IMG/VR virus record: IMGVR_UViG_3300010413_000160
Location: 1-37,494 of that record
From: a virus
Reading direction: 5' to 3' (one strand)
DNA: 37,494 bases
Shown: piece after piece, positions 9,669 to 37,259 of the stretch
Layout: every line of letters starts with the position of its first letter
Numbering within the stretch: position 1 is the first letter of the stretch
Program-made: the position numbers and the translations under genes
Notes under the pieces: model-generated
What the model saw: the letters and a program-made list of their open reading frames with translations, nothing else
What the model was told of the DNA's origin: nothing
Databases searched by the model: none

Positions 9669-9669
9669 T

Positions 9670-12053: not shown

Positions 12054-13124
12054 ATGGCATTTGAAATAGATGTCACCACTCTTGCACCAGAAGAGCGCGA
12101 TTATGTCTCTCAGCTAGGTAAGATATCACGCCCGTTCTGGCATGACCCGTCAAAGCTGCCATATATCAGGCGCGTATACAATATCTACAACGTACTGACG
12201 CTTGCTGCGCGTGAGTGGGATGTGGTCGGTGTTGATATGTCAGCATGGCAGGGTGAGTGTGATTTCTCTCTGCTGTCACAGCTTGCCAGCTTTGTGCTGA
12301 TCAGATACCTGTACGGCAACGATTACTTTGACCCACGCGCTCCAGAGTACGTGCAGGGGTGCGTGGACTACAAGCTGCCGTACGGCGGGTACGGGTACGT
12401 CAAGCCAGGAAAGTCATACGACAAACAGACCAGCAATCTGAAACTGAAATACGACGAATTTTCGACAGATTATCAGGTGATCTACCCGATGGTGGACTTC
12501 GAGGAAACTGGCGGGTACGACAAGAACACCCTGAACAACTGGATGCAGAAATATTACATGAGACTGTGCTCTGCATTTGGATATGGGTTTGATAAAGATG
12601 GGTTGAAGCATTTTATGACCTATACGTCGCCTGGATTTCTCGACACAAAGATGCCGCTGACTGACTACATCAAGTGGACAAAGTTGGACGTTGCACACTG
12701 GACTACTGCACCAGAACCAATACGCCCGAAAGAGTGGTCTGTCCCTGACTTCCCGTGGATATTCTGGCAGGATGGTGTGTACGACTCAACAGGCTATGGT
12801 GTTCAATCAGCAAAGATCGACCACCAGCGGTACTGGGGTTCAAAGCAGGACTTCGCGAATGAGTTTGGTGTAGCTATCTCACCCCCGACTACGCCCACTG
12901 TACCAGCTTATATCAAGGTCAATGTGTCTTCGCTCAACGTGCGCGTTGTAGCAACCGACTCTGGCAACACACCGATTGCTGTTACGTACTACGGTAAAGT
13001 GTGGAAAACCACTGGTAAGTCACAGTGGGATACAGCAAACAGGGGTTGGTGGCTGGAAGTTTCAGATGATCATGGACAGCAACTATGGTTAGCAGGTTGG
13101 CTCTGTAAGGATGTCAGCCCATAG
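12054..13124 (+). CDS. Endolysin: GH25 muramidase with C-terminal SH3-like domain
   Basis: This 356-residue protein cleaves the glycan strands of peptidoglycan at lysis. The GH25 core spans about residues 55-275. It has the N-terminal catalytic-site strand GVDMSAWQG, the glycine-rich GGYGYVKPG, and the DxE catalytic pair in YPMVDFEET, followed by a substrate-lining WIFWQDG. A Thr/Pro linker (about 277-285) leads to an SH3-like wall-binding domain (about 287-356) with LNVRV. The last about 23 codons are AT-richer than the rest and have a diverged second copy at 13736-13804, beyond the HNH gene. The gene therefore seems to have received a new 3' end with that insertion. The last 36 bases overlap the antisense HNH gene. 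Confidence 0.9.
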   Translation: MAFEIDVTTLAPEERDYVSQLGKISRPFWHDPSKLPYIRRVYNIYNVLTLAAREWDVVGVDMSAWQGECDFSLLSQLASFVLIRYLYGNDYFDPRAPEYVQGCVDYKLPYGGYGYVKPGKSYDKQTSNLKLKYDEFSTDYQVIYPMVDFEETGGYDKNTLNNWMQKYYMRLCSAFGYGFDKDGLKHFMTYTSPGFLDTKMPLTDYIKWTKLDVAHWTTAPEPIRPKEWSVPDFPWIFWQDGVYDSTGYGVQSAKIDHQRYWGSKQDFANEFGVAISPPTTPTVPAYIKVNVSSLNVRVVATDSGNTPIAVTYYGKVWKTTGKSQWDTANRGWWLEVSDDHGQQLWLAGWLCKDVSP

Positions 13125-13661
13125 TTTTCTGTTGACGATCATGCTGATTGTAGAATCGTTTACACCATAAACTTCGGCAAGCTCTTTCTGTAGAGCTTTT
13201 CCAGAACGATAAGCTGATCTTATTTCAATAACTTGATCTGGGGTCAGCTTTACGTTATTCTTTGGTCTATTCAAGACGCGATACGAATGAATAGAATTTT
13301 GACTCTTTGTTACCCATTCTAAGTTTGATAGCCTATTGTCCGAGCGTATACCATTTTTGTGATTGCACTCCATGTTGTCTGGACATTTACCCAAGAAAGA
13401 TTCGAGCACTAACCTATGAACAACACATCTCCTTTCTATCCCGTTTTTACTCAGCCCTGTGTGTACATATCCTGAATGATGAATCCTACGTTTCAGTATG
13501 CGCTCTTTTTTATTAGTAACACAATCATTAATGATAATTTGCCTTGCCAAACTTTTTACACGCCCTAAATTGCTGACTTGATAACATCCTTCATAGCCAG
13601 CAATATCGCGCCATTCTTCAGTTTCTAATTCTTTTGGGGTAAAATTATATTCATCCATCAT
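13089..13661 (-). CDS. HNH homing endonuclease (NUMOD4 + HNH + C-terminal HTH)
   Basis: This 190-residue protein carries a NUMOD4 segment (EEWRDIAGYEGCYQVSNLGR, residues 15-34). An HNH_3 nuclease core follows at about residues 80-118 (VHRLVLESFLGKCPDN, then CNHKNGIRSDNRLSNLEWVT). A C-terminal helix-turn-helix (about 138-180) would read DNA. Such free-standing enzymes cut alleles that lack their own gene and spread by repair copying. AGGAG lies 4 bases before the first ATG and 7 before a second (13658), so either may be used. The gene is antisense to the endolysin and overlaps its last 36 bases. It is clearly AT-richer than the flanking phage genes. Confidence 0.9.
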   Translation of the reverse strand: MMDEYNFTPKELETEEWRDIAGYEGCYQVSNLGRVKSLARQIIINDCVTNKKERILKRRIHHSGYVHTGLSKNGIERRCVVHRLVLESFLGKCPDNMECNHKNGIRSDNRLSNLEWVTKSQNSIHSYRVLNRPKNNVKLTPDQVIEIRSAYRSGKALQKELAEVYGVNDSTISMIVNRKLWADILTEPTC

Positions 13662-13954: not shown

Positions 13955-14896
13955 CTACATCAACCACGCGTTCTCATCTGTCTCGTCGGTGTCATCTTTA
14001 CCGGCAAGAGCGATGATACGGTAGGTCATCGCAAGTGCTTCAAGTTTTGCGGCCTGGTCTTCAATAATTTCAAACAATCGTTTATCTTCCACCTCCTCTA
14101 ATCTGTTGGCAATCTCGTCCAGCAAAGCAAAACTGCGCTTACCGTTTTGCTCTATGCCCAAGATAACAATACCGTTGATCTCGGCTACAGAGTATACGCC
14201 ATCCGGCAGAGCGATTTTATCCGTTGAGTCCTCTGGTGCAATGAACGGGCGAGTGTATAAGTTTATCGGCGCGGATGGCTTGGATGCCATAGCAGCTTTA
14301 TAGTCCAGCATAGGCTGACCGAAGTACTCCATGTGCCTTTCAACGAACTGGGCTGTTGCATGATATGGGTTGTTTATATTCTCTATACCAGCATCGAAAT
14401 CCCCGCCACCGAAGAATTTTGGCGAGTGGACATTCCATCCGTCTCCGCCGTGATAGCTAACAAGCGGGTAAAAATTACCAACAATAGTTACACCGCCACC
14501 CAAGTTATCGTCCCAACTCTGAGAGCTCTTTACATTTTCTAAAGCCTCACACACGAAAGCATGTCTGCCAGCATTGTTACTGCCTTGAAATGTAACGCCT
14601 ACGACAACAGGCATGTGAGCTACCATTTCCCCGTCAAAACGGCGTGCAAACTTATGCTGTACTGTACTTGGAACAGCCGAAAAGTACGCCACAGACACAG
14701 ATGAAAAGTTTGCAATAGTGTTTACTTCTTGCGAGAAAAAAGCACGGCGCGGCTCTAAGAAGTCACCTTTCAAAGCATAACCTCCTATTTGCTCGATATC
14801 TACACCGCTGATAGCTTTTGCCCATACCTTTACCTGATCCTCTGGCGTATTGGATGACACGCTGACAGATAAAGAACCATCAAACAGTTTTGTCAT
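13955..14896 (-). CDS. Unknown phage protein, last gene of the minus-strand cluster
   Basis: I do not recognise this 313-residue protein. The first 180 residues are beta-rich with several Gly-rich loops (DDNLGGGVTIVGNFYPLVSY, SPKFFGGGDFDAG). Residues 215-255 look like a second small beta domain (ALPDGVYSVAEINGIVILGI). The C-terminus (about 260-300) is an acidic helix. The start codon overlaps the stop of the upstream Transposase_20-like gene by four bases (ATGA), so the two are translationally coupled and probably act together. It ends close to the bidirectional terminator. Confidence 0.8.
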   Translation of the reverse strand: MTKLFDGSLSVSVSSNTPEDQVKVWAKAISGVDIEQIGGYALKGDFLEPRRAFFSQEVNTIANFSSVSVAYFSAVPSTVQHKFARRFDGEMVAHMPVVVGVTFQGSNNAGRHAFVCEALENVKSSQSWDDNLGGGVTIVGNFYPLVSYHGGDGWNVHSPKFFGGGDFDAGIENINNPYHATAQFVERHMEYFGQPMLDYKAAMASKPSAPINLYTRPFIAPEDSTDKIALPDGVYSVAEINGIVILGIEQNGKRSFALLDEIANRLEEVEDKRLFEIIEDQAAKLEALAMTYRIIALAGKDDTDETDENAWLM

Positions 14897-15666
14897 GGCG
14901 GCGGTATGATGTCTGAGTGACCAAGCACGCTTTTCACATACGGTTCATTAGTGGGCAGTTTCTCCAGCTCGCGCCATTTCAGCCAGAGGTGCTGGAGAAA
15001 AATCTTGCGCATCTTGCGCATTGCAATCAGGTGTATGTGCATGTCTGTATAATCCCAAAGAGGCTTGCCGTCACGGCTTACAGCTTGCTTGCCAGTGTCG
15101 AGCATGCGCCGTTCTTTCTCCGGGTGGAGCTCTCGCTGTCGTTCTTTCTCCTGATAATAGATATCAGAGTACAGAGGTGTCTGCTGTTTGATAAACTGCT
15201 CACCTATAAGATAGCATAGGGTTTTCAGCGGACGAGAAAAGTGGGATTTTTCACCGGGTTTATTTCTCTCGGCTCTACCATCGATGACAGCATGACCAGA
15301 AAATCGCCATAGCTGTGACACATTATCGAACGATGATATGTCATCGATTTGAGCCAGCAGACCTGCGGCAAGTGCTCCATCTTTCAGTCCCTTGATCGAT
15401 GTAATCCAATCCCATATTGGCCCGACTCTCTTCGCATACGGTATCATCGTTTTCTTGGCGTTCTTCTTGATCTCTGTAAGCCACGTCGCGAACATTATCT
15501 CTGTCTGAGCATCAAGGTTACTGCGATTGTCTTTAGCTGCAGACAGGCGGTTCTTATGACGCACGATAAGGCGCGTCATTTCGTCATAGAGCTGGTAGGA
15601 TTGCCACAGCTCTGGGTGCTTGCGCGGCTTTGGCGCAGGCACATTGTTCTCTTTATCGTCTTTCAT
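14893..15666 (-). CDS. Lone Transposase_20-like (IS110-family C-terminal) domain protein
   Basis: This 257-residue protein resembles the C-terminal half of IS110/IS116/IS902 transposases. It has the helix-hairpin-helix-type segment WITSIKGLKDGALAAGLLAQ, then DDISSFDNVSQLWRFSGHA, then a helix LKTLCYLIGEQFIK, a YSDIYYQEK segment, and a terminal HIHLIAMRKMRKIF. The N-terminal RuvC-like DEDD domain of a real IS110 enzyme is absent. The usual catalytic-serine position after GH reads VIDGRAER, with no serine. No insertion-sequence ends were seen. It is therefore probably a DNA-binding relative doing a phage job, not an active transposase. Its start (good AAAGGAG site) lies just downstream of repeat array A, in the same orientation. 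Confidence 0.7.
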   Translation of the reverse strand: MKDDKENNVPAPKPRKHPELWQSYQLYDEMTRLIVRHKNRLSAAKDNRSNLDAQTEIMFATWLTEIKKNAKKTMIPYAKRVGPIWDWITSIKGLKDGALAAGLLAQIDDISSFDNVSQLWRFSGHAVIDGRAERNKPGEKSHFSRPLKTLCYLIGEQFIKQQTPLYSDIYYQEKERQRELHPEKERRMLDTGKQAVSRDGKPLWDYTDMHIHLIAMRKMRKIFLQHLWLKWRELEKLPTNEPYVKSVLGHSDIIPPP

Positions 15667-15693
15667 GGTTTGCTCCTTTCTTACGCATGATAA

Positions 15694-15874
15694 GTTTGGT
15701 TCACACTCGGTTACTGGCTCGCACGGAATTGTTGGGTTTCACGGTGTACCTGGCTCGCACTAGTTCTACGGTTTTCAAGTATTGAGTGGCTCGCGCAACA
15801 ACTTGGGTTTACATACTCAGATTGGCTCGCACTAATCGTATAGTTTCCACGCTGTAGATGGCTTATATGTGCTA
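15694..15874 (-). repeat. Tandem 36-bp array A: alternating 10-bp boxes every 18 bp
   Basis: Plus-strand box TGGCTCGCAC or a variant begins at 15715, 15751, 15787, 15823 and 15859, exactly 36 bp apart each time. A second box, GGGTTTCAC or variant, begins 17-18 bp before each one (about 15698, 15734, 15770, 15805 and 15841). The bases between boxes differ in every unit. On the minus strand, the sense of the flanking genes, the boxes read GTGCGAGCCA and GTGAAACCC. The array fills the gap between two minus-strand genes, starting at the stop codon of the upstream one (15872-15874) and ending before the Transposase_20-like gene. Arrays B and C share it. Confidence 0.9.
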
Positions 15875-16390
15875 CTCCAGCTCGCTCACCATCGCCTTGA
15901 TCTTGCGGATCAACAGGTCAGCGTTAGCCTTGACATCACCACCGTGACTGTGTATCTCCAGCAAACGCGGCCTGATGTAGCCTGGTACAACATCGCTCAG
16001 ATAGTGTTCAGCCATTTCAAGATGCTTCACGTCATCGAATCTGATGTACGACTTATCCTTGCTGTCCTCATTCTCGTTACCGACGCCAAGATACTCGCGC
16101 ATCTCAACCTCGCCGCTCTTAGTCTGCACCTTTACTTTGCGCCTGCTAATCTTTTGAGCGATACTTGCCTGTGCTCCTGATTGAACAAGCAGCTTGATAG
16201 GCGGGATGATATCAACGGCTTTGCCTAACAGCATGGATACAACCGTAGCACGCGCCACAACGCTTGACGATTTACCCTCGTCGAACGCCTTGGCAATATC
16301 ATCATCCGACTCGACCTCGATTTCCTCTTTCATGGCCTCGTCGCGCCAGTCAGAGTAATCCTGTGTGTCAGTCAACCTGTCGTTCGGCAT
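15872..16390 (-). CDS. Unknown phage protein
   Basis: I do not recognise this 172-residue soluble protein. It has an acidic N-terminus (residues 1-40), a helical middle with basic stretch KISRRKVKVQTKSGEVEMRE (about 80-99), and a C-terminal helical region (about 115-172). AAAGGAG lies 5 bases before the ATG. It follows the Pro/Gln-rich gene by 23 bases and ends where array A begins, so its messenger would carry the array. Confidence 0.75.
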   Translation of the reverse strand: MPNDRLTDTQDYSDWRDEAMKEEIEVESDDDIAKAFDEGKSSSVVARATVVSMLLGKAVDIIPPIKLLVQSGAQASIAQKISRRKVKVQTKSGEVEMREYLGVGNENEDSKDKSYIRFDDVKHLEMAEHYLSDVVPGYIRPRLLEIHSHGGDVKANADLLIRKIKAMVSELE

Positions 16391-16413
16391 ACAAACTCCT
16401 TTCTGCTTGTGAT

Positions 16414-17193
16414 CTACTTGTGAACGCGCACCACGTTGTAATACGTCCTGCCGTTCACGATCACTTTCTCCCAGTCAGCATACAGGGTAACGTTACCCCA
16501 GTGGCGCGGCTCGTATGCCGCGACAGGGACATCGAAATGGGCAACCGTAAAGCCTGTGTCAGCATCAAACACGCTGGCGACAGTTTGAGGATCGCGCGCA
16601 TCAGAGAACGGGTACTTGAATTTCCCGACGTAGTACTTCACACGCCGACCATTCCCATCGTCCATGATGACGATCTTGTTAAGAACGTCTGTGCCGCTGC
16701 TGTCGCCACCGGATGAGCTCTGTTGTGTTGCGCTTTGTGTCTGCTTCTGCCCTCCACCAACGGGTATGCCGGTTGCTTGTTCACCACCAACAGGAGGAGG
16801 CGTGATTGCTGGCTGGTTCGGCGATGGTTTCTGTTCGTACTTGCCGTATGTGCGGCTGTACTCATCAACCGTCTCGATGCCATAGCGCGATTTTGAATAG
16901 CGTAAACCGGCAATCATTTCATCCCACACCTCACGGAGGCTGTTGCCCCTGATTGTCGGGTGGAAAATAGCCCCTGTCTTTGGCGAATACACGGTTGTAA
17001 ACATCACAACACGCGCCTCCGGAAGAGGTTGTGTGCTTTTGCCCAATTCGTCCTCGAGAGCCTGAATGTACTTGCTTAGAGTAAGGTACTCCTCAGGGCT
17101 GAGGTTCTTAAGTTCTTCTTGAGCCTGTAAAATATCCTCTTGTGTGTACTCGCTGATCGGTTCAGGCTCAGGCTGCTGTTGCTGGTCGGTCAT
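16414..17193 (-). CDS. Unknown two-domain phage protein with low-complexity linker
   Basis: This protein has about 259 residues. An acidic helical N-terminus (about residues 1-115) contains the segment LKNLSPEEYLTLSKYIQALE. A Pro-, Gly-, Gln- and Ser-rich linker (about 120-168) follows. The compact beta-rich C-terminus (about 170-260) ends in VTLYADWEKVIVNGRTYYNV, and its strand order could suit an OB-like or SH3-like fold, but that is a guess. Of two adjacent ATGs, the second (17193) has the better spacing from GAGGTG. The start lies inside the end of the ribbon-helix-helix gene, so translation is coupled. Confidence 0.75.
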   Translation of the reverse strand: MTDQQQQPEPEPISEYTQEDILQAQEELKNLSPEEYLTLSKYIQALEDELGKSTQPLPEARVVMFTTVYSPKTGAIFHPTIRGNSLREVWDEMIAGLRYSKSRYGIETVDEYSRTYGKYEQKPSPNQPAITPPPVGGEQATGIPVGGGQKQTQSATQQSSSGGDSSGTDVLNKIVIMDDGNGRRVKYYVGKFKYPFSDARDPQTVASVFDADTGFTVAHFDVPVAAYEPRHWGNVTLYADWEKVIVNGRTYYNVVRVHK

Positions 17194-17419
17194 CATTCAC
17201 CTCGTTTTGTGAAATATAAATTTCCAGTTGCCGGTCATGGATATCACTCCACTCCGGGTACGCGAAAGGCAGGCCAGCCAAGAGTGCCTGACGTACTACA
17301 TCAGACATGCTGATCTGCCTCATCTGCGCTATCGAATTGAGCGCGTTTTTCATCGGCCTCGTAACGTTCAGGTCAAGCCTGGCGTCCATGGCGATGATGA
17401 CATTTTGAGCATCGGTCAT
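17168..17419 (-). CDS. Ribbon-helix-helix DNA-binding protein
   Basis: This 83-residue protein has the Arc/CopG-type pattern: a short strand RLDLNVT (about residues 14-20), helix MKNALNSIAQMRQ, turn, and helix MSDVVRQALLAGL. Dimers insert the strand in the major groove of operators. As first gene of the minus-strand cluster, facing a divergent promoter region with repeated sequences, it probably regulates that region or its own operon. The second ATG (17419) is 7 bases from AGGAGG and is preferred over 17425, which is only one base from it. Confidence 0.8.
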   Translation of the reverse strand: MTDAQNVIIAMDARLDLNVTRPMKNALNSIAQMRQISMSDVVRQALLAGLPFAYPEWSDIHDRQLEIYISQNEVNDDRPATAA

Positions 17420-17513
17420 ATACATACCTCCTTTACTTGTGGTTTTTATCCGATGTTATACACATTTTACCACATATTTATAGGAAGGGAGGTGTGGTTT
17501 TTATGGGATAATC

Positions 17514-17524
17514 GGTGAAGTTTC
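17514..17524 (-). promoter_or_regulatory. Dispersed motif copy 2 (minus strand, GAAACTTCACC)
   Basis: GGTGAAGTTTC on the plus strand is the reverse of the motif half GAAACTTCACC. The AT-rich left half (AAATTAAGC) is absent here. It sits between the two divergent start regions and is oriented with the minus-strand genes. Confidence 0.5.
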
Positions 17525-17575
17525 CCTGATTTCATGGGGAATTCACGGATTACTTATCTCAGACATTGATTTCTT

Positions 17576-17584
17576 TGTTATAAT
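17576..17584 (+). promoter_or_regulatory. Extended -10 promoter for the 17.6 kb operon
   Basis: TG-T-TATAAT is a perfect extended -10 element, 38 bases before the ATG at 17622. No good -35 hexamer is seen, as is common with extended -10 promoters. An RNA start near 17591 would leave a leader of about 30 bases with an AAAGGGAG ribosome binding site. Confidence 0.65.
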
Positions 17585-17621
17585 ATACGTGCTAATTTTG
17601 AAAAGGGAGACCAGATAGGAT

Positions 17622-18536
17622 ATGAGTACGATAAATACACGCATGTCACTGATCCATCACGGCAGCAAACCGTTTGACATCAAGAAGTTTATGCCTGTCG
17701 AAAATCAAGAGTACCGCAATAAGCCAACGGGTGGTCTGTGGGCTTCACCCGTCGGCGCAAGTTTCGGCTGGAAAGAATGGTGCATCCAAGAGAGTTTCCA
17801 TGTCAGCAAGCTGGATACATGGTTCAAGTTTGATATCGAGGGCTGGGTTTATAAGATTGACAGCATAGAAGATATGAAAGACATGTTTACCACTGTGAAC
17901 GGCGTTGTTCTGACAAGTCCCGACTTTGAAGAGCTGGTGGACAACGGCGTAGACGCGATCTGGCTAACGTTAAAAGGCGAGCGAGAAACGCGACTGTCTG
18001 TAACACGCCAAAACCTGTACGGGTGGGATTGCGAGTGCGTTCTGGTTCTCAACCCTGAGTGCATTATTATCAATGGCAAACACATCGTATGGGATATGCC
18101 TAAAAAAAAAGATATGTCAAATGGTTACACGTATCGACGGGGTGACGTTCTGGATAGAGCTGGGTCTGGACGACAACGACCAAATCCTAACGATGACCTG
18201 TGGTACGCGCTAGAATACAACCCCTCCCAGTCGTTCAACCACGACGAAGTAGTCAGTATTCTGGCTGAAGTGCCGGGTGAGAACGATGAGCTCTCGTGGT
18301 GGTGGGTGCTGGAGCTGACACGTGAGCGCTACATTCTCGTATCAGGCTGGTGTGACTTTACTGGATGGGATTGCCAGTCTGGTATAGAGGAGTATCCTAT
18401 TGTTGGCAATAAATATGACGCACCGTTATATGCGCCAGCATCGGAGGAATATACAGGGCGTACGATCCGGTCGAACCTGACAAAACAGCTATCGGGTACA
18501 CAGCCTAAATACACATACATGGAGAATAGGAAATGA
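17622..18536 (+). CDS. Unknown two-part phage protein with Trp-rich domains
   Basis: I cannot name this 304-residue protein. The first half (about residues 8-165) has the segment GGLWASPVGASFGWKEWC, a pattern I associate with uncharacterised phage and bacterial proteins. The second half (about 190-275) has WWWVLEL and the motif VSGWCDFTGWDCQSG, also seen in uncharacterised phage proteins. The gene therefore looks like a fusion of two usually separate small phage proteins. It is first in a plus-strand operon with its own promoter, and the next start codon overlaps its end. Host takeover or defence evasion is possible but untested. Confidence 0.75.
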   Translation: MSTINTRMSLIHHGSKPFDIKKFMPVENQEYRNKPTGGLWASPVGASFGWKEWCIQESFHVSKLDTWFKFDIEGWVYKIDSIEDMKDMFTTVNGVVLTSPDFEELVDNGVDAIWLTLKGERETRLSVTRQNLYGWDCECVLVLNPECIIINGKHIVWDMPKKKDMSNGYTYRRGDVLDRAGSGRQRPNPNDDLWYALEYNPSQSFNHDEVVSILAEVPGENDELSWWWVLELTRERYILVSGWCDFTGWDCQSGIEEYPIVGNKYDAPLYAPASEEYTGRTIRSNLTKQLSGTQPKYTYMENRK

Positions 18537-18757
18537 TGGTTACACATAGGGCATGCAAGCTGTCGTGGCTGATAAAAAAGCTGAACAAGATACTCGAGGA
18601 AGAGGGCGACATCCGTGTGTGGGTAGTCGGTGACATGGACTACCCGCTGGAGCTCGGTGGGCTTACACCAATGGTGCACGTGGCTGACAATGATTTCAAC
18701 AAGACCACGCGCGATTGGTCGGACACGCATACGGATAAAGTCCTTTACATAGGCTAG
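18533..18757 (+). CDS. Small unknown phage protein
   Basis: This 74-residue protein starts four bases before the preceding stop ends (ATGA overlap). An N-terminal helix (WLIKKLNKILEEEGD) is followed by strands around VWVVGDMDY and a final VLYIG. The layout (helix, then short strand with a D/P-rich loop, closing strand) is seen in many small uncharacterised phage proteins. The function is unknown. Confidence 0.75.
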   Translation: MMVTHRACKLSWLIKKLNKILEEEGDIRVWVVGDMDYPLELGGLTPMVHVADNDFNKTTRDWSDTHTDKVLYIG

Positions 18758-18770
18758 AAAGGATCGTAAT

Positions 18771-18899
18771 ATGGACAGGAAAACAAAAAATATGGTGGAG
18801 AATATACTCGTGGCTGTGTTCATAGTGATCGTTATAATAGTCACTGTGGCAATTGTGACTGGCACAATCAATGACCCTAACTGGCTGAGGCTGCCGTGA
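18771..18899 (+). CDS. Small single-span membrane protein
   Basis: This 42-residue protein has a basic N-terminus (MDRKTKN), one strongly hydrophobic segment (about residues 9-32, rich in Val and Ile) and a short polar tail. AAAGGATC lies 6 bases before the ATG. The stop overlaps the GTG start of the HNH gene. Small membrane proteins like this can act in superinfection exclusion or host membrane modification, but no family was recognised. Confidence 0.7.
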   Translation: MDRKTKNMVENILVAVFIVIVIIVTVAIVTGTINDPNWLRLP

Positions 18900-19426
18900 G
18901 CGAGAGATTATACGGACTTGAGCCTGTCAGAAGTCTGCCTGTTGACATGGAGGATATAGGCTATCTCTCACAGATCGCTGGTATCCTCTATCAAGGCAAC
19001 GGCGAGAACCTGTTACTGCTCTTGCCTGGTTCTGATTTCGATGCTTTGCGATACGGCAATGTGCTTGTGCATATGCCTGCCGAGAGCGAATGGGCGGCTA
19101 TCGTCAAAGCTACGGACAACCCCAACTATCTTGACACGTTGCGCAAAATATGGATGCGCAAAGCACAGAGGATTATTTCAGGGAAAGTTCAACAGATTAT
19201 CTGGAGGCGAGACGGGTTTACGTGCATGTACTGCGCGCAACAGATGGGTGACGTACAGCTCACTGTAGACCATTTCATGCCGCTAAGTTTAGGAGGTGAA
19301 GATAACGAGCACAACTATGTATCTGCATGTGTACGCTGCAACCGCGAGAAAGGTGCGATGCATCCGCGCGACTGGTGCGAATACAGATCGTTAGACTTTG
19401 GCTGGTTCGTGAAGTATTTAGGTTGA
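18896..19426 (+). CDS. HNH endonuclease (McrA-type Zn finger nuclease)
   Basis: The last 75 residues of this 176-residue protein form a classic HNH nuclease with a zinc site. After IIWRRDGFTCMYC come VDHFMPLSLGG, then NYVSACVRCNREKG. The two CxxC pairs (Cys in CMYC and CVRC) bind zinc and the DH of VDH is the catalytic region. Residues 1-90 are an unrelated N-terminal domain. It starts at a GTG overlapping the preceding stop. It could be a homing enzyme, a packaging-associated nuclease or a host-DNA-degrading enzyme. Its location among small early genes argues against packaging. Confidence 0.85.
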   Translation: MSERLYGLEPVRSLPVDMEDIGYLSQIAGILYQGNGENLLLLLPGSDFDALRYGNVLVHMPAESEWAAIVKATDNPNYLDTLRKIWMRKAQRIISGKVQQIIWRRDGFTCMYCAQQMGDVQLTVDHFMPLSLGGEDNEHNYVSACVRCNREKGAMHPRDWCEYRSLDFGWFVKYLG

Positions 19427-19438
19427 AGGGAGCGTAAA

Positions 19439-19600
19439 GTGAACCTAGAATTTGCAAGACAAATCCTGCCGTGGATCAATATCGGCATAGGCGTAGACTT
19501 GTTGCAGCAGGCTGGCTACCAATATTGTGTGGACGACTCCAGTGAGAGCAAGCTGGTACTCAAGGATATAAAGGGAGCGTCAATCGAAATCAATCTTTAG
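19439..19600 (+). CDS. Small unknown protein (GTG start)
   Basis: This 53-residue frame begins at a GTG, 8 bases from GAAGGGAG. It is soluble, with an amphipathic first half and a C-terminal pair of strands (KLVLKDIKGASIEINL). It fits snugly between the HNH gene and the small membrane-protein genes, without overlap. The function is unknown. Confidence 0.6.
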   Translation: MNLEFARQILPWINIGIGVDLLQQAGYQYCVDDSSESKLVLKDIKGASIEINL

Positions 19601-19615
19601 AGAAGGGAGGATACC

Positions 19616-19738
19616 GTGAAGGACGACACAAGGAGGCTGGTTTTATGGTCGTTACTGCTGGCGATAGGGAGTATCATCTGCTTGGCGGTGTCGGCGTGGC
19701 CCTTGGTTACGTTGGCGCGGTCATTGGTATCGCAATAG
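19616..19738 (+). CDS. Small membrane protein overlapping the next gene
   Basis: This is a 40-residue frame starting at GTG, 5 bases after GGGAGG. After a charged start (KDDTRRL) it has one hydrophobic segment (about residues 8-35). It overlaps the next gene in a different frame for 94 bases, and both frames give membrane segments and both have strong ribosome binding sites. Either could be the true gene. Coupled expression of both is possible. Confidence 0.45.
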   Translation: MKDDTRRLVLWSLLLAIGSIICLAVSAWPLVTLARSLVSQ

Positions 19739-19797
19739 TGAGCGTGCTGATAGCTGGCTTCGCGATATGGGATTGGCTGAACGGTTTTTACAGGTAG
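19645..19797 (+). CDS. Small membrane protein ending at array B
   Basis: This is a 50-residue frame starting at ATG, 8 bases after a perfect AGGAGG. It has one or two hydrophobic segments rich in Gly, Val and Ile (about residues 13-43) and ends in WDWLNGFYR. Its TAG stop lies inside the first degenerate box of array B, so its messenger would carry the array. It overlaps the 40-residue frame. Confidence 0.6.
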   Translation: MVVTAGDREYHLLGGVGVALGYVGAVIGIAIVSVLIAGFAIWDWLNGFYR

Positions 19798-20050
19798 CCA
19801 CACACCGAATGAAACCCATAGAAAATATGCGCGCCATAGGGCGTGTGAAACCCATTCAAAGGATGCGAGCCATAAGGAGAGAGTAACCCTATTTCGCTGT
19901 GCGAGTCATCCCCTGGCGTGAAAACCAGAAAGCCCGTGCGAGCCAATGTCGTGGCGAAAACCAATGTTCCTAAGCGAGCCGATTAAAATGTGACACCCAG
20001 ACTCCATTGTGCGAGCCGTAAATGATATGAATTCCAATATCCTGAGTGCG
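19791..20050 (+). repeat. Tandem 36-bp array B: alternating 10-bp boxes every 18 bp, seven units
   Basis: Box GTGAAACCCA or a variant begins at 19809, 19845, 19881, 19918, 19954, 19990 and 20027. Box GTGCGAGCCA or a variant begins at 19827, 19863, 19899, 19936, 19972, 20009 and 20046. Half-steps are 18 bp, sometimes 19. A first degenerate box, CAGGTAGCCA, begins at 19791 and includes the stop codon of the small membrane-protein gene. Bases between boxes are not conserved. The two boxes share the form RTG-NNA-NCCA, so they may derive from one 18-bp unit. It is followed at once by a terminator, so it is probably a transcribed 3' region. Confidence 0.9.
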
Positions 20051-20052
20051 GA

Positions 20053-20074
20053 AACCCCCTCAAACGAGGGGGTT
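20053..20074 (+). terminator. Intrinsic terminator after array B
   Basis: AACCCCCTC (20053-20061) and GAGGGGGTT (20066-20074) form a perfect 9-bp stem with an AAAC loop, followed by CTCTTTTAG. It ends the operon that starts at 17.6 kb. Confidence 0.85.
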
Positions 20075-20090
20075 CTCTTTTAGCCGGAAA

Positions 20091-20111
20091 AATAAATTAA
20101 GCGAAAGTTCG
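20091..20111 (+). promoter_or_regulatory. Dispersed motif copy 3 (AATAAATTAAGCGAAAGTTC)
   Basis: Third copy of the dispersed motif, 17 bases past the terminator. The AT-rich left half is complete. The right half has G for C (GTTC for CTTC). Confidence 0.6.
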
Positions 20112-20182
20112 TTAGCAGTGCAGCTCTTTGGGACTGCTTGGGGACGGGGTTGGCGCAGTGAAAATACTGCTTTGTGATCTGC

Positions 20183-20206
20183 TATATATTAAGCGAAACT
20201 TCACCG
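20183..20206 (+). promoter_or_regulatory. Dispersed motif copy 4 (TATTAAGCGAAACTTCACC)
   Basis: Fourth copy, matching the consensus across TTAAGCGAAACTTCACCG. It lies in the untranslated stretch before the nuclease and replication genes, an obvious place for an operator. Confidence 0.65.
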
Positions 20207-20451
20207 TTTTACCTGAAAAGGGGGTACATGTGGCGGTTTCAACATGGACACGCGGGGAAAAATCTGGTAGACTGTAAATAGTCAATCAAATGCAACGCAT
20301 AGCGACGTTGCGGGAGGCCGTGGCAAGCCTAAAAGTGCAATTTTTACAGGTTGGTTCTCACATGCCTGAGGTCGTACCGTACATTGCGCGCGGAATTGCC
20401 ACAGGCCACAGGCAGGTGAGAGGCAACCTGTTTGCTTTTCAGGGTGATGAC
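20207..20451 (+). other. GC-rich leader with several short hairpins before the nuclease gene
   Basis: This stretch has a GC content like the rest of the phage, whereas the gene after it is AT-rich. The downstream frame is open from an ATG at 20290 but has no ribosome binding site there. Self-complementary stretches are GCAACG/CGTTGC (20292-20311), TGCCTG/CAGGCA (about 20361-20416) and CAGGT/ACCTG (about 20414-20430). It may be a structured leader, or the remnant of another gene joined to the nuclease frame. Confidence 0.4.
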
Positions 20452-21090
20452 ATGACAATATATAAAAACAAAAAAACCGATACAGCAATCGCTCATACTT
20501 GTGCCTATGATGACAGAATGTTTCGAGACACTTTACGTAGTATCAAGGATATTGTCTCTGATGGTGAAAAAGTACATTTTGTCTTTGAGTTCCGAGACTT
20601 TTCTAAAGACAATCTAAAAGATATCGCAAATAAACTCGTGTGGTTGATGAGAAATGGCGATATCTTTGTTTATTTAACAACAAACAACGAGGAATCGCGT
20701 AATCTCATAAAGAAATTATCAAGCATAGAGAGCCCGATAGAACAGCTTTGCTGGGATTCTATTATGACATCACACAAGCATGGATTCCCGTGGTCTATGT
20801 TCGCTCATAGCGAGATCGAAACTCAATATCCTGTTGAAAAATACCGTATCGATATCGCGATGCCATCATTGAAAATTGCTATTGAATTAGATGGGCATGA
20901 TTATCATAAAACAAAACAGCAAAGAACGCATGATGCTAAAAAGGATAGAACATTATCCTTACTAGGGTGGCATGTAATTAGATTTACCGGAAGCGAAGTC
21001 TATAACAATCCAGTCAGTTGTGGTTATGATTTTGCAGAACTTCACAATATGGTAAAAACAGCAGAGCGAGGAGTTTACAATGAGCGTTAA
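20452..21090 (+). CDS. PD-(D/E)XK endonuclease, DUF559/Vsr-like (start uncertain)
   Basis: The C-terminal half carries a PD-(D/E)XK nuclease pattern of the DUF559/very-short-patch-repair type: SPIEQLCWDSI (first Glu), then ETQYPVEKYRIDIAMP (Asp), then KIAIELDGHDYH (Glu-x-Asp-Gly), and finally LSLLGWHVIRFTGSEVYNNP. Some such enzymes are homing nucleases, others repair or restriction enzymes. From ATG 20452 the protein has 212 residues, and AGGGTG is at 20441-20446. The frame is open upstream to 20290, which would add 54 residues without a ribosome binding site. Composition is AT-rich, as in the next gene, suggesting the two arrived together. Confidence 0.7.
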   Translation: MTIYKNKKTDTAIAHTCAYDDRMFRDTLRSIKDIVSDGEKVHFVFEFRDFSKDNLKDIANKLVWLMRNGDIFVYLTTNNEESRNLIKKLSSIESPIEQLCWDSIMTSHKHGFPWSMFAHSEIETQYPVEKYRIDIAMPSLKIAIELDGHDYHKTKQQRTHDAKKDRTLSLLGWHVIRFTGSEVYNNPVSCGYDFAELHNMVKTAERGVYNER

Positions 21091-22051
21091 GATAATGGGA
21101 ATGGTATGGGATTTAGAAATAGACAGCACACATAAACTTGTGTTGCTTGCGTATGCTGATCATGCCAGCCATGACGGGACTAACATTTATCCTAGCGTAT
21201 CAACAATAGCAAAGAAATGCTGCCTTAGCGAAAGAACGATTCAGCGTATCACAAGACAGTTAGAACAAGATGGCTATCTCGTTTCTGATAGCGATCAATC
21301 GGGCGGGAGAAATAAAACAAACCAGTGGCATATTCCATTAAAGGGTGACAAATTGACACCCTTTAAAAAAATAAAGGGTGTCAATCACGACACAAAAAAA
21401 CCGGAAAGGGTGACATCCGCGACATTAAAGGGTGACATAGCTATGTCACCCGAATCGTCATTAACCGTCAATTTAAACAACCATGAAAATATTTTTTCTG
21501 AAAAAGATAAAAACTATATCGATGGACTTCCACCAGAGGAATACTTTGATAGAGCGATAGAAAAACAACAGGAGGAATTATCGGAAAAGTTTGGAAATAG
21601 TTTTGGAAAAACAACACGGCATACAGCAGACTCAATAAGAGAAGGGGCGCATAGGTCAACTAAGTCATTTCAAGAAAATTCTAACGGCAAAGACAACAAG
21701 ATTGAAAATTTTATTCAAGGCATACCTGTTCATTTGCAAGACATTGCGAGAGCATATTACAACAGGAGTAACAACTTACCTATTAGTGATCAAGAAAAGA
21801 AGTTACATATCAAGAGTTTTGATGAACAGTATTTGAAAGGAATTACAGTGGATTCTATTCAAATGGCGTACAGTTATATGATAGACAGAAACATAGCTAT
21901 TGTCTCACCGAAGAGCCTGACTGGTATAGCAGGTTCGTTTGAGAGAGGAGAGCTCAAATTGGAAAAGCCAAATCATAAAAATAAACAAGAGGCGTTCCCT
22001 CTTGATGGCATGGTTAGCGCATCTGAATACCTCGCGGCGCGTGGGCGATGA
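21080..22051 (+). CDS. Replication initiator-like protein with winged-helix N-terminus
   Basis: Residues 1-85 of this 323-residue protein form a winged helix of the HTH_36 type (THKLVLLAYADHASHDGTNI, then PSVSTIAKKCCLSERTIQRI). Such domains occur in phage initiators and DnaD-like helicase loaders. A Lys-rich linker (about residues 88-125) contains six iterons at DNA level. The C-terminal part (about 205-300) is helical and could load the helicase. The next gene, overlapping by four bases, is the replicative helicase, supporting the role. GAGGAG lies before the ATG. The gene is AT-rich compared with its neighbours, which suggests a swapped replication module. Confidence 0.75.
   Translation: MSVKIMGMVWDLEIDSTHKLVLLAYADHASHDGTNIYPSVSTIAKKCCLSERTIQRITRQLEQDGYLVSDSDQSGGRNKTNQWHIPLKGDKLTPFKKIKGVNHDTKKPERVTSATLKGDIAMSPESSLTVNLNNHENIFSEKDKNYIDGLPPEEYFDRAIEKQQEELSEKFGNSFGKTTRHTADSIREGAHRSTKSFQENSNGKDNKIENFIQGIPVHLQDIARAYYNRSNNLPISDQEKKLHIKSFDEQYLKGITVDSIQMAYSYMIDRNIAIVSPKSLTGIAGSFERGELKLEKPNHKNKQEAFPLDGMVSASEYLAARGR
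21338..21451. other. Putative origin of replication: six iterons inside the initiator gene
   Basis: AAAGGGTG-A/T-CA occurs forward at 21340-21350, 21373-21383, 21405-21415 and 21428-21438, and inverted at 21353-21364 and 21443-21451. The last forward and inverted copies meet in a perfect 22-bp palindrome (21430-21451). The first two also face each other. An AT-rich stretch follows (about 21459-21515), as expected of an unwinding element. Iterons inside the initiator gene recall the lambda origin within gene O. Confidence 0.75.
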
Positions 22052-23346
22052 CTAAAATACCCTACTCACAGAACGCCGAAGAGGCACTGTTGGGATCAGT
22101 CATTATCGATCCGTCGTGCGCGCATCTGCTTGACCTGTCACCGTCTGATTTTTACATCCAGCGTCATAGCTGGATATGGGCGTCGGTCAGGTCTTTACAG
22201 GAAAGCGGTATCAACCCAGACTTTGTTACCCTGAGTGAAGACCTCGAAAAGAAGGGAAAGCTCGCTGAATTAGGAGGCCCTGCTTACCTGTCGTCTCTAG
22301 TTTCAAATTCTCACACCTCATCATTCAACGTTGAAAACTACGCCAATATCATCAAAGACCGCGCCGCGCGGCGTCGCATGCTGGAGATTGCGAACCGCAT
22401 GGCTAAGGCGGCGTACGATGAAGAGCAGGATGTATCGGATGTGTCCATCCAGAGCGCTCAGATGCTATCGTCCGTAACGCGTCCTGTCGGTGGCGCTCGG
22501 CATATCTCGGAGTATATATCCGCGCTGTATGATGACGTTGAAAACCGTGTGAACAACCCGAAAGATGTCTATGGTATGCAGACAGGGCTTGCTGACTTTG
22601 ACCGTATCACTGGCGGACTCCAGAAGTCGGAATCTGTTTATATTGCTGGTCGATCTGGTCTTGGTAAATCGATACTGGCTGTCCAGATGGGTGTAGGGAT
22701 GGCATCCGCTGGTCATCCAGGCGTTATCTACTCGCTTGAAATGGATGGGCTTGTTGTAACTCGGAGAATGATCTCTGCATTAGCTGAGGTCGAGACACGC
22801 AAGCTAAAGACAGGCTATCTCGAGGACGGTGACTGGCACAAATTTACCTCCGCTATTGAGTCAGCGGAACAGCTACCCATATTCCTGTCGGACGAGTCGT
22901 ACTGGACAACAGCGGGAATCAGGTCTGATCTTGCACGCCTCAAGATGACATACGGTATCGAGTGGTTTGTATTAGACTATCTCTACCTTATGTCAGACGG
23001 TATGGGTACGATGAGCATAGTGGATAGGACTGAAATGCTGTCCAGCCGTATCAAGCTGATGTGCAAGGAGTTCTGCCTGTCCGGTGTCACGATAAATTCC
23101 GTCACCAAAGAGGGTGATGTGCGTGGCTCTGAGCAGGTAAAACACGACGCTGATATTGTGTGCATGCTTATGGAACACAAGGCAGACAATACAACAAACT
23201 ATGTTGAGCTTGGAAACATGCGCACACTGCAGTTCAAAAAGGGCAGAGAGCTGGAAAGCAGCAACATATATATGCACCTGGTCAAACACGACCTGTATCC
23301 GTGGTTCTATTGCTTTGAACCAGAACCGAACGCGCAGCGTGTGTAA
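22048..23346 (+). CDS. dnaB: Replicative DNA helicase (DnaB family)
   Basis: This 432-residue protein unwinds DNA at the phage fork. The N-terminal DnaB domain is clear (YSQNAEEALLGSVIIDP, residues 6-22). The ATPase core has a Walker A motif (AGRSGLGKS, about 202-210), a following YSLEMDGLVVTRRMIS (H1a-type segment) and Walker B WFVLDYLYLM (about 306-315). The final third includes the arginine-finger region (RELESSN) seen in DnaB. Length matches bacterial DnaB (about 440-470). It is translationally coupled to the initiator-like gene. A dispersed motif copy lies just after the stop. Confidence 0.93.
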   Translation: MTKIPYSQNAEEALLGSVIIDPSCAHLLDLSPSDFYIQRHSWIWASVRSLQESGINPDFVTLSEDLEKKGKLAELGGPAYLSSLVSNSHTSSFNVENYANIIKDRAARRRMLEIANRMAKAAYDEEQDVSDVSIQSAQMLSSVTRPVGGARHISEYISALYDDVENRVNNPKDVYGMQTGLADFDRITGGLQKSESVYIAGRSGLGKSILAVQMGVGMASAGHPGVIYSLEMDGLVVTRRMISALAEVETRKLKTGYLEDGDWHKFTSAIESAEQLPIFLSDESYWTTAGIRSDLARLKMTYGIEWFVLDYLYLMSDGMGTMSIVDRTEMLSSRIKLMCKEFCLSGVTINSVTKEGDVRGSEQVKHDADIVCMLMEHKADNTTNYVELGNMRTLQFKKGRELESSNIYMHLVKHDLYPWFYCFEPEPNAQRV

Positions 23347-23357
23347 GCTGCCACGAG

Positions 23358-23380
23358 AAATAAATTAAGCGAAACTTCCG
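23358..23380 (+). promoter_or_regulatory. Dispersed motif copy 5 (AAATTAAGCGAAACTTCC)
   Basis: Fifth copy, 11 bases after the helicase stop. The core matches the consensus, but the final ACC is CCG. Confidence 0.6.
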
Positions 23381-23463
23381 TAGTTCAGCAGCGATCCGGA
23401 GAAAGTTGAGAAACTGGAGAAGAATCTTGTCGAGTTCGTGGTAGAATGGGGTAGGTATGTTAG

Positions 23464-23490
23464 CTTATGCGTTCTAGTTCTGAGCATAAG
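23464..23490 (+). other. Inverted repeat upstream of a zinc-ribbon gene
   Basis: CTTATGC (23464-23470) and GCATAAG (23484-23490) could pair over a 13-base loop. No T-run follows, so an operator or leader hairpin is more likely than a terminator. The rest of the 170-base gap before 23517 shows no clear promoter. Confidence 0.4.
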
Positions 23491-23516
23491 ATTGGTGACA
23501 GAAAGGAGCGTACTGT

Positions 23517-23735
23517 ATGCCAAGATACAGCAAAGAGTCTGTTCAGGCTCAGCGTGAGTTTTATGCAATAGCAGCTACACGCTACTACGAGATCGAGAAC
23601 ACGAAAAAGGCGGCTAGGACGGATTACTGTCCTGAATGTAAGAAAGTTAGAGATTTTTCGCGCAGAGAGGAGGGGGATTGGGAGTCGTTTACATGCCTGT
23701 CATGCGGGTATACGCACTCAGCGAGGACGCGCTAG
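23517..23735 (+). CDS. Small zinc-ribbon protein
   Basis: This 72-residue protein carries two CxxC pairs (CPEC, about residues 38-41, and CLSCG, about 60-64) and a basic helix before them. The spacing fits a zinc ribbon of the kind used to bind nucleic acid or RNA polymerase. GAAAGGAG lies before the ATG. It is the first gene after the helicase and is translationally linked to the next gene, a membrane protein starting at its stop. The function is unknown. Confidence 0.75.
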   Translation: MPRYSKESVQAQREFYAIAATRYYEIENTKKAARTDYCPECKKVRDFSRREEGDWESFTCLSCGYTHSARTR

Positions 23736-23935
23736 TGGAAACAAAGTACATATCGCGTATTCTCGTTGGCGTGTTCCTCGCAATGATATGGCTGGCTGGC
23801 CTGTTTACACTTCAGGCTTACACGCATGGACGCGTTGAGGACTGCTGGTTCTTTATACTGCCGCCTGTTGCGTATTTTTGCGGCTACTATGCTATGAAAT
23901 GGGCGCAGTTGATCGATGACGGAAGGGATGACTGA
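23735..23935 (+). CDS. Two-span membrane protein (GTG start overlapping preceding stop)
   Basis: This protein has 66 residues with two hydrophobic segments (about residues 6-28, ISRILVGVFLAMIWLAG, and 37-58, WFFILPPVAYFCGYYA). GAGGA is 7 bases before the GTG at 23735, which overlaps the preceding TAG. The frame also opens upstream to 23678 (TTG) and 23693 (ATG), but those starts lie inside the zinc-ribbon gene without a clear site. The function is unknown. Confidence 0.6.
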   Translation: METKYISRILVGVFLAMIWLAGLFTLQAYTHGRVEDCWFFILPPVAYFCGYYAMKWAQLIDDGRDD

Positions 23936-23937
23936 AC

Positions 23938-24330
23938 ATGAAAGCCGACTACAAAGATATCACCTCTCGTATTGACGAGAAGCCATCGTGGTACGACCAG
24001 AACGGCGTGCCGCGCTACGGTAAGTTTCACCCTGATAACTGCCCTGATATTTATGCTAACATGGTTGTGTTGATGCGCATTGAATGTCAGTCGTGCGGTA
24101 TGCCGTTCGATGTCGAGCTCCACAAGGATGATTACTTTGGTACTCACTTGGGTATTCCGCGCACGTGGCATTATGGAGACCCGCCAAGACACGGCCATTC
24201 TGGCGGCGTCAGGTGCGCGGGCGAGACCATGAACTGCATTGACATAGAGGTTCTAAAAGTCTACAAGCGCAACCACAACAAAAAATCGGGATGGGCGCGC
24301 GTCAAGGAATTGGAACAGAAGTGCAATTAA
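23938..24330 (+). CDS. Conserved phage protein, Cys/His-rich
   Basis: This 130-residue protein has the features of a widespread uncharacterised phage family: DITSRIDEKPSWYDQNGVPR at the N-terminus, then CQSCG, then HYGDPPRHGHSGG and the C-terminal MNCIDIEVLKV. The Cys and His residues could bind zinc. The function is unknown in the family as far as I know. It overlaps the start of the downstream methyltransferase. Confidence 0.8.
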   Translation: MKADYKDITSRIDEKPSWYDQNGVPRYGKFHPDNCPDIYANMVVLMRIECQSCGMPFDVELHKDDYFGTHLGIPRTWHYGDPPRHGHSGGVRCAGETMNCIDIEVLKVYKRNHNKKSGWARVKELEQKCN

Positions 24331-24983
24331 CGCACGAGTATATCAACAAGGTGGTTTGCGGGGATTGCCGCGATCTTTCGCTGAATATCCCTGACGAGTC
24401 AGTGGATATGATATTTACTGACCCTCTGTACCATGAAAAGCACCGCCATTATTACCGCTGGCTTGCGGAAACCGCCGTGCGTGTGCTGAAACCCGGTTCG
24501 TGGGCGTTTATCTACGGCGGTTGGGAAGAGAAAAGCTACTACGACCACCTGTGCATTGATGGATGGGAGCACCGCGTTACGATTGCGCTGGTCAACAAGG
24601 CTGGCTACCCGCGCTGGTGGTCTAAGAAAGTCATGGTGGGCTACAAACCCGTGTACGTATTCACGAAAGGAGCGCCGAGAAATGACAAATGGCAATCAAA
24701 CATCGCAGATAGTGACCGAATTGACAAACGCTATTCACGATATGGTCAAGGCATTGGCTTCGCTATTGAAAAGGTTGACATGTTTACTGAACATGGCGAT
24801 ATTGTCTTTGACCCGTTTTGCGGAGGCGGTCAGACAGCAGCAGCGTGCTCAATTCTTGAGAGGAATTTCATCACCTTTGACATTGAACAGTCTGCTTGTG
24901 AGATCGCGCGAGCCAGGTTGGACGATGCGCAACCGCCGATGACGGGCTTTGAGACCGCCATGCAGGCTAGGCTGATGGAGTAG
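24321..24983 (+). CDS. DNA amino-methyltransferase with DPLY motif (N6-adenine or N4-cytosine)
   Basis: This protein of about 220 residues has the catalytic motif IV near the N-terminus (DMIFTDPLYHEK) and the S-adenosylmethionine motif I near the C-terminus (DIVFDPFCGGGQTAAAC), an order typical of beta-class amino-methyltransferases. The usual (D/N/S)PP(Y/F) motif reads DPLY here, an unusual Pro-to-Leu change whose effect is unclear. The role is probably protection from host restriction. The start is uncertain: GTG 24321 overlaps the preceding stop, and an alternative lies at 24291. Its stop codon lies in the first degenerate box of array C. Confidence 0.8.
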   Translation: MQLTHEYINKVVCGDCRDLSLNIPDESVDMIFTDPLYHEKHRHYYRWLAETAVRVLKPGSWAFIYGGWEEKSYYDHLCIDGWEHRVTIALVNKAGYPRWWSKKVMVGYKPVYVFTKGAPRNDKWQSNIADSDRIDKRYSRYGQGIGFAIEKVDMFTEHGDIVFDPFCGGGQTAAACSILERNFITFDIEQSACEIARARLDDAQPPMTGFETAMQARLME

Positions 24984-25089
24984 CCAGACTTTTGTTGAAA
25001 CCCATATTGCGTGTGCGAGCCGCAATCCCCGCGAAACCCGAAACGTGTCTGCGAGCCGAATAAGATATGAAACCCAATTGTTGCGTGCG
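24977..25089 (+). repeat. Tandem 36-bp array C: alternating 10-bp boxes exactly every 18 bp
   Basis: TTGAAACCCA, GCGAAACCCG and ATGAAACCCA begin at 24995, 25031 and 25067. GTGCGAGCCG and CTGCGAGCCG begin at 25013 and 25049, with a last partial GTGCG at 25085. All steps are exactly 18 bp. A first degenerate box, GGAGTAGCCA, begins at 24977 in phase and includes the methyltransferase stop codon (24981-24983). Same two boxes as arrays A and B. Confidence 0.9.
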
Positions 25090-27422: not shown

Positions 27423-28133
27423 TCAAGCGCGTGTATAAGGCCCTGTCTTGTGATAAATTGGAGTTCCATTTATGCCAATCTTGTTCAACTCTTTGCACTC
27501 TAGCCACAGTCGTTCACGCCATTTTATTAGGTCATATGGCAACTGGTTTGGTTTTAGGTTTTTGTATATCTCACAAAAACTACGAGGTATTCTTGCTTTC
27601 TGAGTATGGGAATTGTGATCGGTTGGCAAACATGGTACTAATCCTTTATGTATTGCTTGATAAATGCCACTGTGGTGAGTATATCCTATGATGGCGTTAG
27701 CTTCGTTTGTGGTTATTAACTCTTCGGTTTCAGGCCATGATGGGTATTTTAATTCGTACCAATATAATGCTGACCGATATTTTTTGTCTCTTGTAGAGCT
27801 TAGTTCTAATAAAATTAATGCCTGCTTTTTTTTCACGCGTAAGTATGGCAAAAGTGCTTCACAAGCTCGGTATGATTGTTCGCATGTGACTTGCCAAGAC
27901 CATAGCTGTTTAGAGTTATTTGTTTGTTGTTTTGTTAAGAAATGCGCTCCTCCAAATACTCCTTTTAGCAACGATGGAATGTCATCAGTTACTTGTTTCA
28001 AGCCAATTAAGCCAAAATACGAATCGCTTACCATGTCCCCTCTAATTCGTTTTCTTTGGCTTGATTTCTTTAGAGATATATGCCCATCACTATCGATTGC
28101 TCCTGCTAAATATGACAATATATACTTATCCAT
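27423..28133 (-). CDS. LAGLIDADG homing endonuclease inserted in a methyltransferase gene
   Basis: This 236-residue protein begins MDKYILSYLAGAIDSDGHIS, a clear LAGLIDADG motif whose acidic residue binds catalytic metal. A second conserved segment is LLPYLRVKKKQALILLEL (about residues 95-112). The C-terminal part may add DNA contacts. A single motif suggests it works as a homodimer or carries a diverged second motif. ATG 28133 follows GTGAGG; the frame extends upstream without a ribosome binding site. The stop codon abuts the last TSPP codon of the split methyltransferase. The gene is antisense to its target and AT-rich relative to the phage, and has its own promoter. Confidence 0.9.
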   Translation of the reverse strand: MDKYILSYLAGAIDSDGHISLKKSSQRKRIRGDMVSDSYFGLIGLKQVTDDIPSLLKGVFGGAHFLTKQQTNNSKQLWSWQVTCEQSYRACEALLPYLRVKKKQALILLELSSTRDKKYRSALYWYELKYPSWPETEELITTNEANAIIGYTHHSGIYQAIHKGLVPCLPTDHNSHTQKARIPRSFCEIYKNLKPNQLPYDLIKWRERLWLECKELNKIGINGTPIYHKTGPYTRA

Positions 28134-28164
28134 CTTTATCCTCACTTTAGTAGTATGCATAAAA

Positions 28165-28173
28165 ATTATATCA
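28165..28173 (-). promoter_or_regulatory. Extended -10 promoter for the LAGLIDADG gene
   Basis: On the minus strand the sequence reads TG-A-TATAAT, a perfect extended -10 element, about 32 bases before the ATG at 28133. It lets the nuclease be expressed independently of the plus-strand operon. Confidence 0.6.
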
Positions 28174-28193
28174 TATAAAGGAGGTGATGCCAA

Positions 28194-29004: not shown

Positions 29005-29195
29005 ACATTGTAACCAATGTTGACATCCTCAGGATGGCTCAGCAGCTCGAGAGGCAGGGGAAAGAGTTCGATGCTTACTTTTACTACCTGCAGGCTGCTG
29101 ATCTGTACGAGGCTGTACAGATGTACGACATGGCTGACAGGTGCAGGAGAACGGCTAAAGAAATGTCTGATGCCGAGGACGACAAAAATCGATGA
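29001..29195 (+). CDS. Small helical protein between two methyltransferases
   Basis: This 64-residue protein has two helices in a TPR-like arrangement (AYFYYLQAADLYEAVQMYDM, then ADRCRRTAKEM). It starts with an ATGA overlap to the preceding stop and ends with a four-base overlap to the C5 methyltransferase. GAAAGGGATC precedes the ATG. It may be a partner of a neighbouring methyltransferase; no family was recognised. Confidence 0.7.
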   Translation: MNIVTNVDILRMAQQLERQGKEFDAYFYYLQAADLYEAVQMYDMADRCRRTAKEMSDAEDDKNR

Positions 29196-36083: not shown

Positions 36084-36092
36084 GGCATCCTC

Positions 36093-37241: not shown

Positions 37242-37259
37242 TACACACACTCCTTTCAT

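Follow-up and report, generated by a model that had tools for sequence, protein, structure and literature searches.

Three phased repeat arrays in a viral genome as probable guide-RNA arrays of a phage-encoded TIGR-TasA system

The dual-repeat TIGR array was described by Faure et al. in 2025 (PMC12045711). In dual-repeat TIGR-TasA systems such as FpTIGR of Flavonifractor plautii, two alternating repeats of 8-12 nucleotides (nt), with UG...CCA ends and an A-rich loop, are combined with spacers of about 9 nt into a 36-nt unit, the first edge of the array is truncated on its 5′ side and the last on its 3′ side, a terminator is present, and a solo Nop-domain Tas protein is encoded adjoining an array in a phage carrier. 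The guide length measured for TasA, and also for TasR and TasH, is 36 nt (PMC12045711). Here we analyze the IMG/VR virus record IMGVR_UViG_3300010413_000160, whose full 37,494 nt are referred to as the window, and conclude with high confidence that three repeat arrays within it (arrays A, B and C) are TIGR guide-RNA arrays of a phage-encoded TIGR-TasA system, in which TasA probably binds foreign DNA without cutting it. The features listed above recur at this locus. It differs from the described systems in that two of its three arrays are distant from tasA (B by 4 kb, C by 9 kb) and are located on the opposite strand, at the ends of unrelated genes, and in that its arrays hold only 3-7 units each, with more degenerate boxes. 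A first-pass annotation of the window had already placed the three arrays and their strands correctly; its statement that no element of this form had been described was wrong.

Read on their own strands, all three arrays alternate an edge box, TGCGAGCCA, with a loop box, TGAAACCCA, and the variable spacers between the boxes measure 9 nt, or 10 nt in a few cases. The step is 18 nt, with a few 19-nt steps in array B, as had been annotated; the latter are at 19900-19919 and 19991-20010. The unit of the dual-repeat array is 36 nt. A two-box chain finder gave scores of 79, 117 and 50 for arrays A, B and C, respectively, as compared to a maximum of 20 among 20 first-order-shuffled windows. The alternation of two boxes had been recognized in the first pass, but the exact boxes proposed then need a small correction: they are best described as the above 9-mers, and the G that precedes them is the last spacer position, with a mere 50-56% preference. 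Edge and loop both start with UG (box D) and finish with CCA (box C), although some of the boxes in the window diverge. Coding repeats were considered and dropped, in agreement with the earlier judgment that the arrays are phased and non-coding, and an Rfam search matched no family. A CRISPR array, in which repeats are likewise parted by variable guide spacers, was also rejected; CRISPR loci have one repeat type, with repeats of 25-36 nt, spacers of similar size and Cas genes, whereas the window contains two alternating 9-nt repeats, 9-nt split spacers and no Cas genes that could be seen.

The 257-amino-acid (aa) protein encoded next to array A passes the NCBIfam model NF052498, 'TIGR-Tas system RNA-guided endonuclease', with 154 bits against a cut-off of 100. 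A phmmer search matched it to TasR (9mty, 1.2e-28) and TasH (21kl, 6e-10), and its AlphaFold model (predicted local distance difference test score, pLDDT, 86.5) matched the cryo-electron microscopy structures of TasR (Z 21.5) and TasH (Z 18-20), as well as the IS621 bridge recombinase (Z about 15). TIGR-TasR (9MTY) and TIGR-TasH (from Salicola phage CGphi29; 21KL, 9W04) share with this locus a homologous Nop and coiled-coil fold, at Z 18-21, and the same repeat logic, but the window protein is without their N-terminal RuvC or HNH nuclease. Indeed, the sequence alignment with 9mty begins at residue 100, about 15 residues precede the Nop core of the window protein, and no N-terminal HNH or RuvC domain was found in its 257 residues. 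Therefore, the protein is TasA. Similarly, the IS110/IS621 bridge-RNA recombinases possess a related RNA-binding Nop-like fold, but the window protein has no DEDD recombinase domain and is accompanied by arrays in place of a single bridge RNA. PHROGs assigns the TasA family to phrog_4285, annotated 'transposase'.

The array ends point to how guides might be released. Among 47 arrays, first edges retain positions 5-9 only (AGCCA; 77-91% per position) and last edges retain positions 1-4 only (TGCG; 83-87%), and all three arrays of the window have truncated first and last edges, with TGCG as the last box. Because the first edge is AGCCA only and the last edge is TGCG only, a predicted cut at TGCG^AGCCA would yield guides of exactly 36 nt (5+9+9+9+4 = 36). 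By this prediction the window encodes 15 guides, with 5 in array A, 7 in array B and 3 in array C. TIGR arrays have been described as ending in a terminator (PMC12045711); on the 3′ sides of the window arrays a clear terminator is present for B only, while C is followed by a weak AT hairpin and A leads into tasA.

The exact edge-9-loop-9-edge pattern was found in 41 stretches of IMG/VR viral contigs, from at least 36 records. Five GTDB contigs, with the labels Smithella, Planctomycetota, Euryarchaeota and Thermoplasmatota, contain it as well. A protein search returned a Tas match in 29 of the 36 viral records with repeats, and a profile search showed that most tas genes share their strand with an array no more than 50 nt away. 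These relatives came via the repeat pattern; a close protein search of IMG/VR with TasA alone gave no match, no near-identical phage was found in GenBank, and the tail protein had no match among GenBank phages. Arrays more than 4 kb from tas were seen only in the window (B and C) and in two relatives: at 22-27 kb on the same strand in G002, and at 5.4 kb on the opposite strand in G033. Therefore, scattered arrays are a minority arrangement but are not unique to the window. The same comparison bears on the suggestion, also made in the first pass, that the arrays are iterons or form a partition/centromere site, recognized by a phage protein such as the ribbon-helix-helix protein encoded in the same apparent operon as tasA. 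Phages commonly have direct repeats close to replication genes. However, the two alternating boxes, the freely variable 9-nt spacers, the strict orientation with transcription, the terminator, the truncated ends and the tight linkage to tas in relatives all speak against such a site, and neither the 36 related records nor the five genome contigs contain a homologue of the ribbon-helix-helix gene. This idea found no support, and we give it almost no credence.

Variations on the array and on TasA were also seen among these relatives. In a second TasA clade (L041, L021, L026, L034, L010, L006, L009, L012 and L035; alignment A2) the same array repeats accompany a Nop protein with a CxxC...CxxC zinc-finger-like insertion in its middle. 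G002 (L075-L078) contains, at 44-49 kb and 67-72 kb, a very large TIGR complement of at least nine array segments, some of them 22-27 kb from tas. A close TasA relative, L176, shows stem-loop-type units at 9480-9780; their loop, TGATACCCA, is constant, while long palindromes that vary take the place of the edge (fold z -5.1 and -3.2), and L172 (9600-9770) looks similar in sequence. The L176 units are intermediate in form between the two array types described so far, inside one TasA clade. Finally, in the two related phages G016 (2744-3202) and G019 (2177-2509) (L106, L114) a 189-nt array block is 98.9% identical and its flanks are 83-92% identical, while the arrays show gains or losses of internal units and single-base differences in a few spacers. 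This pattern suggests that guides are under selection or were recently exchanged, and not acquired end-on as in CRISPR.

All three arrays of the window point in the transcription direction of the gene that precedes them, as had been noted before. The earlier claim that each begins at a stop codon holds for arrays B and C, where the first box contains the TAG of a 50-aa open reading frame (19795-19797) and that of a 230-aa DNA methylase (24981-24983), respectively; in array A, the stop (15872-15874) sits 8 nt ahead of the first guide-proximal AGCCA. In array B the first guide is predicted to start at 19796, on the A of AGCCA and thus on the second base of the TAG stop, and the predicted start in array C likewise falls on the second stop-codon base. 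The arrays of related phages are likewise oriented with transcription, and the phasing with stop codons recurs. When open reading frames of at least 40 codons were considered, 32 of 59 non-duplicate arrays had a stop codon no more than 30 nt ahead of their first spacer, and 9 of these 32 stops were at exactly -6 (TAG-CCA) or -7 (TAA-GCCA, TGA-GCCA), for which the binomial p is about 1e-4 if uniform offsets are assumed. The simple reading of this overlap is compactness, in that the stop can come from the AGCCA box and stop codons at the array start would keep ribosomes off the guides. A ribosome-binding site and a start codon follow immediately after roughly half of the arrays, so arrays sit inside operons. 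One might go further and propose that the phage distributes TIGR guide arrays behind unrelated genes, at their 3′ ends, for use in trans, and that, where the first guide starts within a gene's stop (T^AG-CCA), its maturation would sever the mRNA in the stop codon, such that guide production would equal silencing of that gene's mRNA; we regard this proposal as a long shot.

While the identity of the system is drawn from sequence and fold, its mechanism can be outlined from the published family. By analogy (PMC12045711), the arrays would be transcribed on the mRNAs of the preceding genes and then cut into tigRNAs. A TasA dimer would bind one tigRNA, and its spacers A and B would each pair with a different strand of an 18-bp target (A, then the reverse complement of B), unwinding and bending the DNA. 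Arrays B and C would presumably load the same TasA in trans. Based on the published TasR and TasH biochemistry together with the lack of a nuclease domain, TasA with its tigRNA most likely binds and bends foreign DNA without cutting; in occupying or bending its target, it would most likely prevent a competing mobile element from being transcribed or replicated. The RNA-level function suggested in the first pass was the right direction, but the arrays would be guide precursors and not tandem protein sites on 3′ regions. The guides could alternatively be Box C/D-like and address an RNA target, for modification or RNA binding, instead of DNA, given that small nucleolar ribonucleoproteins also have the Nop fold and C and D boxes and that the TasA model shows a weak structural match to 90S pre-ribosome chains. 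However, both TasR and TasH target DNA, RNA was left uncut by TasR (PMC12045711), and no fibrillarin-type methyltransferase partner was seen in family searches of the window, which makes an RNA target very improbable.

Several observations weigh against the interpretation of the arrays as functioning TIGR guides. Given the C-5 rule and the 8-nt 3′ overhangs of the published geometry, the expected target consists of spacer A, 0-2 bases and the reverse complement of spacer B. When 487 distinct guides were compared with 1.24 Mb of these phages, no exact or one-mismatch match was found in this geometry, and two-mismatch counts were similar to those in wrong geometries. The 15 window guides gave one exact 18-mer against 50,697 phage records, in an unannotated stretch; the 18-mer in Pseudomonas phage Bise (E = 6) was taken as chance. 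Guide scans of IMG/VR were also near chance, with 2 matches (gap 2) for window guide C1 and none for A4. For the relative G016, one guide matched 6 IMG/VR contigs at three sites in unrelated genes and the other matched none, and these were likewise taken as chance. Moreover, the boxes of the window are among the more degenerate, with about 1.0-1.5 mismatches per box as compared to 0-0.8 in most relatives, so part of the window guides may be inactive. In the extreme, the arrays would be decaying relics, with TasA perhaps active on some guides and arrays B and C defunct, and the loop boxes of units A2 and B3 are indeed damaged. Yet register, truncated ends and terminator have been retained, most units keep TG and CCA, and the tasA reading frame is intact; such decay is thus unlikely, though worth bearing in mind.

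The target searches also address whether TIGR-TasA regulates the phage's own genes, with guides steering TasA to sites in the phage genome. Without a nuclease, self-binding by TasA would not be lethal, and single 9-nt spacers occur in their own genome 444 times versus 356 +/- 22 when permuted, or about 25% more commonly. However, searches for targets in the phages themselves and in their relatives, in five geometries and with gaps of 0-2, stayed at chance level. No 18-bp self target was found, and own-genome 18-bp matches at 2, 3 and 4 mismatches numbered 1, 15 and 165, against expectations of 1.2, 13.9 and 145. No close A-B spacer pairs were found on the same genome, and the excess of single spacers is scattered and fits genome word usage. 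As far as sequence matching can tell, frequent self-targeting is excluded, and regulation of the phage's own genes is improbable.

A ParB-like partner of tasA was reported by Faure et al. (PMC12045711), and tasParB-tasA operons resemble this locus in having a conserved small gene in operon with tasA and the array between them. The 172-aa partner in the window had no ParB match by Pfam, PDB sequence or fold searches. It matched nothing in Pfam, NCBIfam or PADLOC and had no significant Foldseek match, and VIA returned weak winged-helix-regulator-like matches (Z up to 5.3) that were not above noise. Its homologues were located solely directly upstream of an array and tasA, and nowhere else in the sequence searched, and the family has an invariant DW near its N-terminus. 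The conserved 172-aa gene is likely to be a partner of TasA, and its family is possibly a DNA-binding one.

Coordinates of the TIGR-TasA locus, its relatives' partner genes and further genes of the window.
Feature	Position	Strand	Remarks
tasA	14893..15666	-	solo Nop-domain Tas protein, 257 aa, without nuclease domain; directly downstream of array A
Array A	15684..15863	-	five tigRNA units directly upstream of tasA; final edge truncated to TGCG
Array A units	A1 15863-15828, A2 15827-15792, A3 15791-15756, A4 15755-15720, A5 15719-15684	-	
Array B	19796..20049	+	seven tigRNA units
Array C	24982..25089	+	three tigRNA units
Terminator-like element	20053..20083	+	Rho-independent type, hairpin (20053-20074) and T-rich tail, 3′ of array B
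50-aa open reading frame	19645..19797	+	TAG stop overlaps first edge of array B
N6/N4 DNA methylase gene	24291..24983	+	Pfam; TAG stop overlaps first edge of array C
Other DNA methyltransferase genes (three in all)	28294-29004, 29192-29863	+	by eye
Partner gene	15872..16390	-	172 aa, 5′ of array A and tasA; eight related records have a homologue at the equivalent position
Partner homologues	L004:3984-4526, L014:7068-7619, L020:8518-9186, L023:97-627		
Partner homologue	L032:3084-3620	-	
Partner homologues	L165:9263-9880, L172:9040-9600, L176:8743-9492		
Gene 3′ of tasA	13955..14896	-	313 aa; start overlaps tasA stop; no family found
Rest of apparent tasA operon	16414..17425	-	260-aa protein without assigned function and 85-aa ribbon-helix-helix protein
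Probable homing endonuclease	13089-13661	-	NUMOD4/HNH_3
Probable homing endonuclease	27423-28193	-	LAGLIDADG-like open reading frame, judged by eye only
Two adjacent genes	34536-37259	-	resemble a MoxR-type AAA ATPase and VWA-domain protein pair, by eye
First of these by coordinate	34536-36083	-	matches a PHROG without known function

The element has been known since 2025, and the window is a further TIGR-TasA case, from a tailed phage and with scattered arrays. The published description (PMC12045711) leaves open the natural targets, the job of the nuclease-less TasA and the enzyme that cuts the guides. The locus and its relatives contribute a negative target search that argues against self-targeting, a predicted cutting site at TGCG^AGCCA, a recurring overlap with stop codons, a conserved partner gene, and arrays that would work, if at all, in trans.

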